From Neptuniibacter sp. UBA6509 (GTDB lineage Bacteria > Pseudomonadota > Gammaproteobacteria > Pseudomonadales > Balneatricaceae), in assembly GCA_002435145.1 (NCBI GenBank), contig DJLT01000045.1, positions 1-33,344 of the forward strand: a stretch of DNA of 33,344 nucleotides, in the 5' to 3' direction. The notes under the pieces were generated by a model. It saw only the letters and a program-made list of their open reading frames with translations. It did no database searches and was not told the origin of the DNA. Position 1 is the stretch's first letter, and every line of letters starts with the position of its first letter. The translations under genes were made by a program, and so were the position numbers. Below, piece by piece: positions 1,283 to 9,353 of this stretch.

Positions 1283-2542
1283 ATGAATTTAGTCACACAA
1301 TCACTAATCACTTTATACAAACAGCATGCATATAATTCCAAGCTCACAGCTGATAGTCACCAGAATGAAGTTATTCAACAACTTCAATGCTCGTTAGATC
1401 AACTATCTGAGCAAGACCCTACAATTGCCCAGCAACTCAGGCTCAAATTCCGGAAGCGCACACTTTATACACAAGGGATTTATTTATGGGGCCCCGTTGG
1501 ACGTGGAAAAACCATGCTTATGGATCTATTTTGTGAATGCCTTCATCCAGAAAAACACTTGAGGCTACACTTTCATCACTTCATGGAAATGATTCACCAA
1601 CAGTTATTTGCCAATTCTGGCGAGCGTGACCCTCTATCTCATATTGCCGACAAACTCTCACACCAATATAAGGTCATCTGCTTCGATGAATTTTTTGTCA
1701 GCGATATTGGTGATGCGATGCTCTTAGGTCGCTTATACAAACACCTATTCCGTAACGGTACTTTCATAGTCAGCACATCCAACACAAAACCCGACAACCT
1801 TTACCATGACGGCCTTCACCGCGACCGATTCACACCCGCCATCACCCTGATCAATGAACAAATGAAAACCATAGATTTATGTGATGGGCTAGATCATCGC
1901 CAAAGAAAACTGACTCAACAACGGGCTTACTATATTAAAAACGAAGCAGCTTTATATTCAATTTTTCAACAAATTGCTTCTCCTACTCACAAGCATATAG
2001 CAAGCCTTCATCCCAAAAGCGGTTTATCAATTACGAGAACAGTCACACTCTGTAATCGAACGATTAACTGTAAAGCTCATACCCAAACTACCATTTGGTT
2101 TGATTTCGCAGAACTATGTGAAGGACCACGCTCATCACGTGACTATATTGATCTAGCTTCACTCAACAAACACATCGTTTTGAGTCATGTACCTCAATTT
2201 ACAGGCATTGCTAAAGAGCAGATTAAAGCAAGAGGGACAGAAGACGGGGGAGGAAACGTAAATTCAACTGGATTAAGGAAAGTGACCCAAAATAATACGG
2301 ATGATTCAGCGCGTAGATTTATAAGCCTAGTGGATGAGCTTTACGACAATCGAATTAACCTATTTATCAGTGCGGAATGTAGCATGGAAGAACTGTATAA
2401 AGGAGAGCTTCTAAGCTCGCCCTTTAAAAGAACACTCAGCCGATTACATGAAATGTCGTCAGCTGAGTATCAACAACTACAACTCAAAGCTCTCAACGAA
2501 CATGAGGATTGCTACGCATCTCAACCCCAAATGTTGAGCTAG
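1283..2542 (+). CDS. zapE: ZapE/AFG1-family cell-division ATPase
   Basis: An AFG1/ZapE-type P-loop ATPase; in E. coli ZapE associates with the Z-ring and destabilises FtsZ polymers. Walker A is GPVGRGKT (residues 70-77) and Walker B VICFDEF (131-137). The family signatures LCEGPRSSRDY (278-288) and ARRFISLVDELYDN are present, with the ISAEC strand and FKRTLSRLHEM near the end. At 419 residues it is longer than the usual roughly 370-390. Part of the excess is a glycine- and asparagine-rich insertion at about 311-338, between VPQF and the DDSARRF segment, where relatives run straight through. The last 50 bases overlap the 3' end of the convergent gloC gene. A mitochondrial AFG1-like role is possible, but bacterial members are called ZapE. 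Confidence 0.87.
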   Translation: MNLVTQSLITLYKQHAYNSKLTADSHQNEVIQQLQCSLDQLSEQDPTIAQQLRLKFRKRTLYTQGIYLWGPVGRGKTMLMDLFCECLHPEKHLRLHFHHFMEMIHQQLFANSGERDPLSHIADKLSHQYKVICFDEFFVSDIGDAMLLGRLYKHLFRNGTFIVSTSNTKPDNLYHDGLHRDRFTPAITLINEQMKTIDLCDGLDHRQRKLTQQRAYYIKNEAALYSIFQQIASPTHKHIASLHPKSGLSITRTVTLCNRTINCKAHTQTTIWFDFAELCEGPRSSRDYIDLASLNKHIVLSHVPQFTGIAKEQIKARGTEDGGGNVNSTGLRKVTQNNTDDSARRFISLVDELYDNRINLFISAECSMEELYKGELLSSPFKRTLSRLHEMSSAEYQQLQLKALNEHEDCYASQPQMLS

Positions 2543-3122
2543 GCCCATGACCTGGTATAAATTCAATTGATTCACCTAGAGGAAATAGCTTGTCCTTAAT
2601 TGAACTAATCAACTCTTGATGGTTACCTTGCGGAAAGTCAGTTCTCCCGATTGAACCATGAAAAAGAACATCACCAACTAATGCCATTTGATCTTCAATA
2701 TTATAGAAAACAACATGCCCAGGTGTATGACCAGGGCAATGGATCACTTCAAACACCCCTTCTCCTACCTGAACTTCATCCCCACAATCCAGCCATCGGC
2801 TAGGCTCAAATCCCTCACAATGCGGAAAATTGAACATTGAACATTGCTGCGCCATACCCTCAATCCAGAACAGATCACCTTTATGAGGCCCTTCTATAGG
2901 CAAACTCTTTTCACCCGACAGCTCAGCAGTTCCACCCGCATGATCTATATGCGCATGAGTTAGCATTATTTTTTCTAGCTCAACACCTTCTTCCTCAACA
3001 GCAGCTAATATACGATCTAAATCTCCGCCCGGATCAACCACTGCAGCTTTCATACTTTTCTCACACCAAACGAGTGTGCAGTTTTGCTGAAAAGGCGTCA
3101 CAGGAATAATGCGATACTTCAT
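2493..3122 (-). CDS. gloC: GloC/YcbL-type MBL-fold hydrolase (glyoxalase II-like)
   Basis: A metallo-beta-lactamase-fold hydrolase of the YcbL group, called glyoxalase II type 2 (GloC) in enterics, which hydrolyses S-lactoylglutathione-type thioesters. Counting from the ATG at 3122, the Zn ligands are THAHIDH (residues 55-61), H132 in CPGHTPGH, D151 in LVGDVLF and a C-terminal PGHGP histidine. The 209-residue length fits YcbL (about 215) and lacks the extra C-terminal domain of classical GloB. The frame is open to 3173, but MKYRIIPVTPFQQN is the family N terminus and has an AGAG ribosome site 6 bases upstream, so I chose 3122. The 3' end overlaps zapE by 50 bases, tail to tail. The physiological substrate is not shown by the sequence. 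Confidence 0.85.
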   Translation of the reverse strand: MKYRIIPVTPFQQNCTLVWCEKSMKAAVVDPGGDLDRILAAVEEEGVELEKIMLTHAHIDHAGGTAELSGEKSLPIEGPHKGDLFWIEGMAQQCSMFNFPHCEGFEPSRWLDCGDEVQVGEGVFEVIHCPGHTPGHVVFYNIEDQMALVGDVLFHGSIGRTDFPQGNHQELISSIKDKLFPLGESIEFIPGHGPSSTFGVEMRSNPHVR

Positions 3123-3368
3123 AAATATCTCTACAGTGTGAATAATTAAAAGACGCATTATATCAGGGAGCACTCAATAGCAAAGTACTCACTTCACACA
3201 ATGATCTCTATAAAACAGACTTAAACAATCTCCACACTCATAATTAAGTCTATTTATTTGAAATGGATCTTGTTTTCCTTCAATTTTCAATTCAAAGTGA
3301 CGTTAACTTATGCATAGCCAAGTCTATGACGCACAATATAAACAAGCATACGAGATAGAGTCTTCATC

Positions 3369-3632: not shown

Positions 3633-3948
3633 GGAAGACTCTCTTTCGATAGACCAGCCATCCACTTGGGATCTGTGACTTTGCGTCCCCAAATTACTAA
3701 GGGTTTGCCATTATCGAGAGAGGATCTATTCGCTGGAATAGAGCTTAAAAGACCACTAAAGCTTGAGCTAAAGCAAAATATTCAGAATCCATTAAGCCTC
3801 GTTAAATACTAGCAGGCTTATAAAGTTTTGCTAAATATAGAATTAGTATTACCAGCAAAGAAATGATTATTAAGATAGTTTTTGCTATCTAGCAGCGGTT
3901 GAGGCTAATATTTCCATTATAAGCGCTTCAATACAAAGGCCTAATCTG
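3633..3948. other. 316-base non-coding stretch before the MarR-type gene
   Basis: I see no gene or strong terminator here. It holds two inverted repeats. One is TAAGCCT (3793-3799) with AGGCTTA (3814-3820), spacer 14. The other is the tighter AGATAG/CTATCT palindrome at 3873-3890, listed separately. The rest is AT-rich and probably carries the promoter of the regulator at 3949. Confidence 0.5.
3873..3890. promoter_or_regulatory. candidate operator of the MarR-type regulator
   Basis: A perfect 6-bp inverted repeat AGATAG-TTTTTG-CTATCT lies 58 bases before the regulator's start codon. MarR-family dimers usually bind palindromes of this size near their own promoter, so autoregulation is a reasonable guess. 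There is no T-tract after it, so it is not a terminator. Confidence 0.3.
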
Positions 3949-7555: not shown

Positions 7556-7622
7556 GATTACTGCCCTCCGCATTTACTCGCAGGCCAGCAAAACTGTCTT
7601 TCAATAATTTAGTCATCAACAT
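7548..7622 (-). CDS. possible 24-codon leader ORF of thiDC
   Basis: An ORF of 24 codons runs from ATG 7622 to TAG 7548. The ATG directly follows the last base of riboswitch helix P1, and its ribosome site TAGGA (7631-7635) lies within the conserved aptamer core, so TPP binding would hide it. The stop overlaps the TTG start of thiD by 8 bases. The encoded peptide begins MLMTKLLKDSFAGL and matches nothing I know. Whether it is translated is inference. Confidence 0.35.
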   Translation of the reverse strand: MLMTKLLKDSFAGLRVNAEGSNLE

Positions 7623-7701
7623 CTCGATTTCCTACGCCGGAACAAACCGGATCAGGTTCAACGGGTGTAGTCTCAGCCCCAAAAAGGGCACCCCGACCAA
7701 G
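7623..7701 (-). promoter_or_regulatory. TPP riboswitch (THI element)
   Basis: On the minus strand the thi-box signature is complete: CGGGGTGCCC, GGGGCTGAGA, ACACCCGTTGAACCTGATC and CGGCGTAGGAA, in order. Helix P1 forms between CTTGGT (7701-7696) and ATCGAG (7628-7623). It precedes thiD by 67 bases. I see no terminator hairpin between aptamer and thiD, so control is probably at translation start, as in E. coli thiM/thiC. Confidence 0.95.
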
Positions 7702-7860
7702 AACAAGTCTTATTTTAAATTCTAGCGAGCCTATCTGTCCAGCATCCTTGACCTTTCATGCCATAAAACTCTCAAAAGAGGGATTTAAACCCTATAAAAG
7801 ATAAAAATTAGGAATTTTTCTTATATTTTTATCCACTATTAGGATCCATACTAGTTCACA

Positions 7861-7879
7861 TGGATCTCCTGTTCATGGA
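7861..7879 (+). repeat. 19-bp 5' element shared by the two sRNAs (copy 1)
   Basis: TGGATCTCCTGTTCATGGA occurs identically at 7861-7879 and 8107-8125, at the 5' end of each sRNA. It holds two GGA motifs. Confidence 0.9.
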
Positions 7880-7977
7880 CAGAATAACCGGATGGCCAAG
7901 ACAAGCGGATAGAATGCAGGATGCATTACAAGGACACCCTTCGGGGCACCGCACGGAATATGGATGCCAATAAAGAG

Positions 7978-8008
7978 GAGCGCTTCTAAGGAATGAAGCG
8001 CTCTTTTT
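7978..8008 (+). terminator. terminator of sRNA copy 1, GGA in loop
   Basis: GAGCGCTTC (7978-7986) pairs perfectly with GAAGCGCTC (7995-8003); the loop TAAGGAAT carries a GGA; five Ts follow. The loop GGA is typical of RsmX/Y/Z-type RNAs. Confidence 0.92.
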
Positions 8009-8106
8009 GTTTCTGCCATTTGCAATCATTAATACAACAAACAAAGACCTCAAATTAAGAGTTTTTCCTATATCAATGTTGTTAGTAATAGCGATAATGG
8101 TATATG

Positions 8107-8125
8107 TGGATCTCCTGTTCATGGA
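8107..8125 (+). repeat. 19-bp 5' element shared by the two sRNAs (copy 2)
   Basis: Identical to 7861-7879. Exact identity here against divergence downstream marks it as the functional 5' end of the RNAs. Confidence 0.9.
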
Positions 8126-8213
8126 ATGAATACGAAGGATGGCCTCGAAAAGCGAAAAGGATGGCATTGATGCCCTAGGATATATTGTCGCAAGGATTAC
8201 GGAAGCCAGCAGG

Positions 8214-8247
8214 GGGATGTTTCAAGGAATGAGACATCCCTTTTTTT
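8214..8247 (+). terminator. terminator of sRNA copy 2, GGA in loop
   Basis: GGGATGTTTC (8214-8223) pairs with GAGACATCCC (8231-8240) with one T-G wobble; the loop AAGGAAT carries GGA; seven Ts follow. Confidence 0.92.
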
Positions 8248-8336
8248 ATTCCTATAGAAAGCATACAGAGAACGTTTCTAGTCAGCCATCAACTCAGCAC
8301 CTGCACCTGCACCTATAACACCAAACCCTATATCAG

Positions 8337-9353
8337 CTATTTCGACCATGCCTTTCCTAACAAAGTTTCAATTGAAGCTTTGCATCCCGAAGCAATCCAA
8401 GCTGAAAACAAGCTAGCCATATTAGGTATCGGCAATAATTGAGGGGAACTTTGCTCAAGCCAAGCAGTTACCTGATTACTTTCCAACGCAGTCACCACTG
8501 TACCTAAATTTAAAATCTGTAAAATTTCGGCATTTGATTCTTGCTCAACCTGCCCCAGCTGAGGAATCGTCATAATCTTCTTCCCATATTGCAACGCCTC
8601 GCTTAATAAACCAAATCCAGCGTTACAGATAACCCCTTCACACTCCGCAAGATCCTTTTGAAAGCCAACTCTAGAAAATGCTTTTATATGGCAATTGCCA
8701 TCTGCTTCAGGTCGGTCAATCGCTGCATAGATATGAAAATCAATATCAGGACACCTCTTAAAGATTGGCTGAATTCGCTCTAGCCCATCATGCGGTAGGT
8801 ACACGACAACCTTTCTAGGAATTAATGTCGATTGATTGGCTGCTGGCTGAATTAAAGGGGGAAAGATAGCTTGATCAAAATGATTCCAGTGCAAACCGAT
8901 AGGAATATCAGCTGGAGCAAACAACTTCACTTGAGCCTTCAAAAAACGATCAGATTTCGTATCAGGCAACTCATGCAAAAAGGCATATTGATGAGCAAGA
9001 CCAACGCACTTCACTCCTTGAAGCTTAGCGGCCCAAGCACTTACTGGCTCAAAATCAGTAATTACCAAGTCATACGTACTAAGATCAATTTCCTTTACGT
9101 CCCTTATTAACCGAACCACACTGTTTTTAGTCAACGTTTGCCAGCGACTAACCCGGCTGCCCTGCATATAGAACGTTAACCCTCGTCGACAGCGATACTC
9201 ACCAAATGGTTCCATATTGAATAAATTTTCGGGTTCTCGGCCGCTAAACAAATAGTCGACCTTCACACCTGCTTTTTCTAATTCTGGAGCCATTACACGC
9301 GCACGCGTTATGTGACCATTACCCGTAGCCTGCACCCCATAAAGTACACGCAT
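8337..9353 (-). CDS. VC2487/MJ1255-family glycosyltransferase
   Basis: A 338-residue GT-B-like glycosyltransferase of the MJ1255/VC2487 type, related in fold to MurG and UDP-glucuronosyltransferases. The N terminus MRVLYGVQATGNGHITRAR carries the Gly-rich first loop and the GNGH motif typical of this family. The C-terminal half has the sugar-nucleotide region CEGVICNAGFGLLSEALQYGKKIMTIP (about residues 237-263), with the NAGFG turn and the Glu that usually binds the donor ribose. No signal peptide or membrane helix, so cytoplasmic or peripheral. Substrate unknown. The start lies 3 bases after the stop of the PAP2 phosphatase gene, so the two are surely co-transcribed and probably act on the same lipid or lipid-linked substrate; that link is inference. 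Confidence 0.8.
   Translation of the reverse strand: MRVLYGVQATGNGHITRARVMAPELEKAGVKVDYLFSGREPENLFNMEPFGEYRCRRGLTFYMQGSRVSRWQTLTKNSVVRLIRDVKEIDLSTYDLVITDFEPVSAWAAKLQGVKCVGLAHQYAFLHELPDTKSDRFLKAQVKLFAPADIPIGLHWNHFDQAIFPPLIQPAANQSTLIPRKVVVYLPHDGLERIQPIFKRCPDIDFHIYAAIDRPEADGNCHIKAFSRVGFQKDLAECEGVICNAGFGLLSEALQYGKKIMTIPQLGQVEQESNAEILQILNLGTVVTALESNQVTAWLEQSSPQLLPIPNMASLFSAWIASGCKASIETLLGKAWSK

Follow-up and report, generated by a model that had tools for sequence, protein, structure and literature searches.

Tandem GGA-rich small RNA genes beside the thiamine genes of a Neptuniibacter genome: probable CsrA sponges of a family-specific kind

Described Csr and Rsm small RNAs

The RsmY, RsmZ and RsmX RNAs of Pseudomonas (Rfam clan CL00106) resemble the units described here in length (about 110–150 nt), in displaying GGA in hairpin loops and in ending with a terminator. 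Tandem arrangement also has a precedent, as the available part of a report on P. brassicacearum places rsmX-2 in tandem with rsmX (PMC7911923). Unlike RsmY, RsmZ and RsmX, the units score below Rfam cut-offs, lie behind another promoter box and stand next to thiamine genes, with as many as three copies in tandem. The same regulatory logic is seen in Marinomonas mediterranea, a marine bacterium in which CsrB and CsrC, both GGA-rich and terminator-ended, operate with CsrA and the BarA/UvrY-like pair PpoS/PpoR; the accessible portion of that report gives a canonical TGTAAGN6CTTACA box and a PpoR that is 50.9% identical to GacA (PMC8523701). Against what that portion describes, both the box and the regulator of Neptuniibacter are divergent. 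Pseudoalteromonas fuliginea belongs to another order. Its RNAs Pf1, Pf2 and Pf3 are likewise new Csr sRNAs of a marine non-model bacterium, a likeness drawn by description from the excerpts available (PMC9927453, PMC11882849).

UvrY/GacA, like the regulator encoded on contig C28 of the present genome, joins a receiver to a LuxR-type DNA-binding domain, and its site ahead of Csr sRNA genes is an inverted repeat; according to the available part of PMC4682653, the E. coli UvrY site is 18 nt long and, at csrB, a distant upstream element with its centre at -183/-182. The Neptuniibacter box differs from the site so described in being 15 nt long and about 37–51 bases upstream, and the regulator falls below the equivalog cut-off. 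A literature search, mostly without subscription papers, found no small-RNA work on Neptuniibacter, no Csr work in related genera and nothing on Csr sRNAs of the family; it returned one Alcanivorax sRNA paper, accessible in part. Five marine genus or order names were looked for in the accessible text of a CsrA-sRNA prediction paper (PMC5568370), and none was found there.

The two units, their setting and their relatives

The window, a stretch of 33,344 nt, is part of a 3.88 Mb draft genome. An initial annotation had placed in it two consecutive GGA-rich units on the plus strand, each closed by a terminator with GGA in its loop; both units lie at the positions claimed with the GGA counts listed in Table 1, and both terminators were confirmed. 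Unit lengths depend on a start set one base 5' of the common TGGATCTCC, and the first 19 bases, TGGATCTCCTGTTCATGGA, are identical between the units. The GGA count of unit 1 was equalled in 1 of 2000 dinucleotide-preserving and 0 of 2000 mononucleotide shuffles; for unit 2 the figures were 55 and 1, a modest excess over the former kind of shuffle. On either strand of the window, 145-base stretches with at least 8 GGA occur only at unit 1, at unit 2 and at 2232–2394 (+), the last lying inside an AFG1-like ATPase gene.

Table 1. Positions of the two units and their elements in the window
Feature	Positions	Strand	Details
Unit 1 palindromic promoter box	7809-7823	+	TAGGAATTTTTCTTA
Unit 1 -10 element	7847-7852	+	CATACT (family consensus CATAAT); position-specific conservation over 37 units
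sRNA unit 1	7860-8008	+	149 nt, 10 GGA; start assumed; model R1 120.5 bits
First hairpin, unit 1	7871-7885	+	GUUC-AUGGACA-GAAU, GGA in loop
Hairpin, unit 1	7913-7927	+	AAUGC-AGGAU-GCAUU; covarying helix 3, 81.8% of cells paired
Intrinsic terminator, unit 1	7973-8008	+	Loop with GGA; T run; 12 of 12 pairs of the 3' helix two-sided
Unit 2 promoter box	8056-8070	+	TAAGAGTTTTTCCTA
Unit 2 -10 element	8093-8098	+	GATAAT
sRNA unit 2	8106-8247	+	142 nt, 9 GGA; start assumed; model R1 130.3 bits
Intrinsic terminator, unit 2	8211-8243	+	Loop with GGA; T run

Other structural claims fared less evenly. Perfect small hairpin loops bearing GGA had been attributed to both units. They are clearer in unit 1 (the first hairpin, AATGC-AGGAT-GCATT and the terminator) than in unit 2, in which the GGC...GCC hairpin has a loop without GGA. 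Folding of both units, which had been put forward as a check, likewise divided them: the predicted energy of unit 1 is better than that of shuffles (z -2.42), whereas that of unit 2 is not (z -0.37). When unit 1 is folded alone, moreover, the program favours an alternative pairing over its first hairpin.

The genes flanking the units are on the opposite strand, and each unit has its own box, -10 element and T-tailed terminator. The neighbourhood is that of the thiamine genes, as the initial annotation had stated: they lie on one side (Pfam ThiC, phosphomethylpyrimidine kinase), and a convergent glycosyltransferase-like gene (8337-9353) occupies the other flank. The thiamine genes have a TPP riboswitch (Rfam; 7612-7705, minus strand), and a TPP riboswitch falls within the same ~3 kb locus in 10 of 13 loci scanned, from several genera, so the genomic place of the sRNA genes is often conserved; in the same-genus genome G002 the homologous place is on contig C10 (L009). 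A riboswitch or leader role for the units themselves was considered and rejected, since the TPP riboswitch is on the opposite strand, the downstream gene is convergent and both units end in a terminator. Elsewhere in the window, a c-di-GMP-I riboswitch (3645-3719, minus strand; 51.6 bits, cut-off 35) lies upstream of a metallo-beta-lactamase-fold gene (2493-3173).

Rfam, named earlier as a route to checking the units, gave no match at gathering level in the unit region. At relaxed thresholds the best score was 20.5 bits for RsmY on unit 1 (cut-off 57), and PrrB_RsmZ reached 10.4 bits on unit 2 (cut-off 44); among relatives, RsmY scored 25.9 and 23.0 bits, both in one of the 13 loci scanned. 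Every score for clan CL00106, in the window and in these 13 loci, is below its gathering cut-off, and by membership the units are not Rfam RsmY or RsmZ.

Relatives were sought in 57 genomes, 36 of the same family (own genome included) and 21 from other families of the order. Besides the own genome the genus is represented by ten, and blastn matched the pair or parts of it in nine of these (E 8.8e-85 to 1.7e-14), with E 0.026 only in the tenth (G007); matches in the family's other genera were weaker. An alignment of 37 units cut from 24 genomes was used to build a covariance model, R1, whose scores on these sequences are thus partly by construction. R1 matched 28 of 36 family genomes, with one to three copies each, and none of the 21 genomes of other families; training sequences came from 24 of the 28, the others being G013 (weak, 29.4 bits), G021, G025 and G034. 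Within the genus, three copies were counted in G005, G006 and G010, two in the own genome (G000), G001, G003, G008 and G009, one in G002 and G004, and none in the fragmented assembly G007; the first unit of G003 seems decayed, with a weaker start, box and score. In 390 genomes drawn from the order R1 matched 16, of which 15 are within the family, including four new and untrained ones (G246, G266, G305, G388), and the single match outside is marginal (26.1 bits). The GGA loops, whose absence from related genomes would have spoken against the earlier reading, are retained there, and GGA number, hairpins, box and -10 element all appear conserved as far as sequence tells.

Promoter box and GacA-like regulator

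The sequence TARGA-N5-TCYTA, a 15-base palindrome of odd symmetry, stands in 35 of 37 units with its start at -52 to -50 relative to the TGGATC start, and the -10 bases A-13, A-11, A-10 and T-9 are each found in 33–35 of the 37; this numbering assumes a transcription start, the defined promoter elements being the box and the -10. The pattern TARGANNNTTTCYTATA was matched 73 times within the family, spread over 24 of its 36 genomes (6 times by the reversed-pattern control), and once in the 21 genomes of other families (control 12). The published GacA/UvrY box, TGTAAGN6CTTACA (PMC8523701 and PMC4682653, each in its available part), has 18 positions and even symmetry and so differs from the conserved family box. 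Its exact form, with palindromic sites counted once, is missing from the own genome and occurs at 4 sites in the 36 family genomes (control 3) and at 8 in the 21 others (control 3). The strict canonical pattern is too rare to prove its use by other families, and the contrast therefore rests on the literature and on the census of the family box. The promoters of the units are not canonical GacA promoters. The LetA box of Legionella is similar in composition to the family box; its string was not found in the literature searched, and no argument here draws on it.

The other components expected of a Gac/Csr circuit are encoded in the own genome: two CsrA genes (91.3 and 90.7 bits, cut-off 27) and, on C54, a BarA/GacS-type hybrid kinase with sCache_4, HAMP, HisKA, HATPase and receiver domains. 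The GacS sensor domain was found in 28 of 36 family genomes. None of the 36, however, reaches the cut-off (280 bits) of the UvrY/SirA/GacA equivalog NF007018, which is passed in 12 of 21 genomes from other families and missed by less than 10 bits in two more. The best match in the own genome is the C28 protein (C28:28898-29566), a receiver plus LuxR-type DNA-binding protein with 190.8 bits, for which NF007018 is in turn the best of the NCBIfam models (189.8 bits). At E <=1e-40 this protein has counterparts in 31 of 36 family genomes (46–88% identity, self excluded); in 7 of the 21 others the search lands on canonical GacA places at 38–42% identity. By cut-off the regulator is not a GacA equivalog, yet by sequence likeness it is the nearest GacA relative found in these genomes.

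All 31 family proteins have KT[VI]H[AST]HR[TAS]N as the recognition helix, which reads DNA in this regulator class; all 12 canonical proteins from other families (12 of 13 loci, L290 of G052 being left out) have KTVN[ST]YRYR. In a tree from which the own-genome paralogue L118 was left out, and in which the outgroup rows are long and one join was flagged by the program, the proteins of the family group in a single clade (88/77) next to the canonical one (100/100). A receiver spacer of 10–15 residues is present in 26 of 31 family proteins (three rows, G005, G008 and G022, read by eye) and is 2–3 residues in G011, G015, G023, G024 and G026, all of them genomes without an R1 match. Across the 36 family genomes, sRNA and GacS sensor domain are both present in 26, both lacking in 6 and discordant in 4 (Fisher p 3.6e-4), and sRNA and a regulator with the receiver insertion are both present in 25, both lacking in 7 and discordant in 4 (p 1e-4), these p values being raw figures that ignore shared ancestry. 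Mere presence of the regulator does not track the sRNA in the same 36 genomes (p 0.30). In G013 (weak R1 match), G018 and G034, R1 is present and the regulator was not found at 1e-40. The gacA gene usually adjoins uvrC; the regulator gene does not, uvrC being ~6 kb off. In G029 (C25:9236-10363; L198) a second window-type sRNA gene lies ~330 bases from the GacA-like regulator gene.

These observations bear on which protein acts at the box. Binding of TAGGA-N5-TCCTA by the GacA-like regulator is the reading we consider reasonably probable, and a joint, family-wide change of regulator and box is the likely novelty, the link between the two being deduced. Alternatively the RNAs may be CsrA sponges whose box is bound by some other transcription factor. 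This is the less probable of the two, but it draws on the 61 matches to the UvrY/GacA model in the own genome (E <=0.001), which imply many receiver/LuxR-type proteins, on the sRNA-bearing genomes G018 and G034 noted above, and on a box of 15 positions and odd symmetry where that of GacA has 18 and even symmetry. It is at odds with the regulator being nearer to GacA than any other protein of those family genomes in which it was found, with a helix change that is as family-wide as the box, and with the nearness of the second R1 match of G029 to the regulator gene.

With the GacA-like regulator as the preferred binder, the circuit would run as follows. The BarA/GacS-type hybrid kinase would signal to the GacA-like response regulator, a putative divergent GacA variant particular to the family and altered in its recognition helix, which would bind the palindrome TAGGA-N5-TCCTA about 37–51 bases upstream and switch on the sRNA promoters. 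Each unit would have a promoter and a terminator to itself and so yield a separate transcript, and each RNA would offer several GGA sites, some of them in hairpin loops, to CsrA dimers. Sequestration of CsrA by the RNAs would in turn free its mRNA targets. Taken whole, tandem CsrA sponges with promoters switched through a GacS-type kinase and a GacA-like regulator are a very likely explanation of the locus.

RNA structure and further candidates behind the box

Five helices were named in the 37-unit alignment: pairing of the 5' UGG with CCA just before the 3' hairpin; the first hairpin, whose loop contains GGA; a hairpin of GGC...GCC type; a two-pair hairpin; and the 3' hairpin (terminator). 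Cells of this structure are paired in 92.6% of cases versus 80.9% in shuffles and 38.6–52.2% in slid versions, and 112 cells are two-sided versus a shuffle mean of 29.6, with two-sided changes in 16 of 24 pairs; the tested structure derives partly from the same 37 sequences and is favoured to that extent. Most of the covariation comes from two helices: the 3' hairpin, with all 12 pairs two-sided, where a terminator alone would account for it, and the third helix, with 3 of 3. In the first hairpin, the second helix of the alignment (7871-7885 in unit 1), 98.0% of cells are paired and a single pair changes on both sides. No pair does so in the closing helix or the two-pair hairpin, whose support is thus conservation. 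Both window units have at least 4 consecutive T after the 3' hairpin; 13 of the 37 aligned units lack such a run, and termination in those relatives appears questionable.

The GGA content might conceivably be incidental, the units being Hfq-type sRNAs that pair with mRNAs. The 19 bases at the 5' end are almost invariant across the 37 units, beyond what a sponge needs; however, part of this conservation could be explained by the predicted pairing of the invariant start with CCA before the 3' hairpin (helix 1, no two-sided changes). Furthermore, each of the 37 units keeps 7–12 GGA while the remainder varies, and many of them have three conserved hairpins with GGA in the loop, two of these hairpins clearly covarying. 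We therefore hold mRNA pairing to be improbable. That the stretch is instead a minus-strand protein gene is hardly credible: the 103-aa open reading frame 7856-8167 exists and frames of at least 102 codons occur at three other loci (at least 100 codons over a unit in 4 of 10 genus loci, window included), but the longest antisense frame is just 34–59 codons in the other 6, which makes the frame most likely spurious, as first proposed, and the conserved features are plus-strand RNA helices and promoter elements.

We thus read the units as tandem CsrA-sponge sRNA genes of a family-specific kind, and put the probability of sponge function at about 0.9. The initial annotation had called them the organism's CsrA sponges. 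A CsrB/RsmY-type reading is very probable in view of the conserved GGA, hairpins, box and -10, the two CsrA genes and the GacS-type kinase; what did not stand is the implied exclusiveness, for there are further candidates. With one mismatch allowed, the box pattern occurs at 10 places in the own genome (control 2), two being those of the window, and three (C13:200503, C60:17152 and C64:8679) show no clear sponge-like unit. At C42:42760 (L153) an RNA-like stretch carries four GGA hairpins (GAGTC-ATGGAC-GACTC, GCCCTC-AGGAT-GAGGGC, CATC-AGGAT-GATG and TGTCAGCA-AGGA-TGCTGATA), with relatives in G002, G003, G004 and G008, all of the same genus; an alignment of six has 20 consensus pairs, 6 of them two-sided, and leaves the first and third hairpins outside the consensus. 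The stretch behind the box at C8:40684 (L156) contains eight GGA as well as a terminator; it has relatives in G001, G006 and G031, another genus of the family among them, and in an alignment of four 11 of 36 consensus pairs have two-sided changes.

Two short candidates, C65:26147 and C13:50378, consist of GGCC-AAGGAY-GGCC and a terminator-like hairpin. The former is near a second csrA among phage-type genes: the region C65:26147-29600 (L154, L293), presumably a Mu-type prophage, encodes an HU-like protein, DUF3164 and, by PHROG matches, a CsrA-like regulator as well as a transcription regulator. The same prophage-like region holds a Rfam Hammerhead_II match (L154:2217-2290, minus strand; 58.8 bits, cut-off 37). 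The C13:50378 candidate adjoins a gene whose PHROG matches are phage DNA methyltransferases.

At least two GGA hairpins lie within 200 bases of 19 of 42 box sites of other than window type, the 42 being those of the 73 matches with surroundings examined, some of them in genomes that are nearly identical and one truncated where its contig stops; among 3000 random 180-base stretches drawn from the loci examined the figure is 6.7%. Other boxes precede short coding genes, and at five loci (G000:C13:27604 (L157), L245, L252, L253 and L254) the conserved hairpin TCTACA-AGGAA-TGTAGA or its core lies just before a likely start, its loop probably containing the ribosome-binding site, an arrangement that would suit a CsrA target. 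No Pfam match was obtained for the 115-aa protein at G000:C13:27604. A Rfam search of 14 box-bearing loci at E <=0.5 returned no Csr/Rsm family. Since the same box precedes these other GGA-hairpin RNA candidates, the tandem pair belongs, on sequence grounds, to a larger box-marked set.

In its broadest form the proposal is that the family rewired Gac/Csr, with a recognition helix changed from NSYRYR to HAHRxN, a receiver insertion in most members, and an operator shifted from an 18-bp even to a 15-bp odd palindrome that now also drives unrelated-looking sponges, GGA-leader mRNAs and phage-side short RNAs, one of them near a prophage csrA; we give this an even chance. Sequence drift makes CsrA sponges difficult to detect. 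Here a family-specific operator acts as a tag leading to several structurally different sponge candidates, where Rfam at its cut-offs reports none in the loci scanned. If the link to the regulator is true, the family would be a clear example from nature of a global regulator that shifted specificity together with its regulon of small RNAs.
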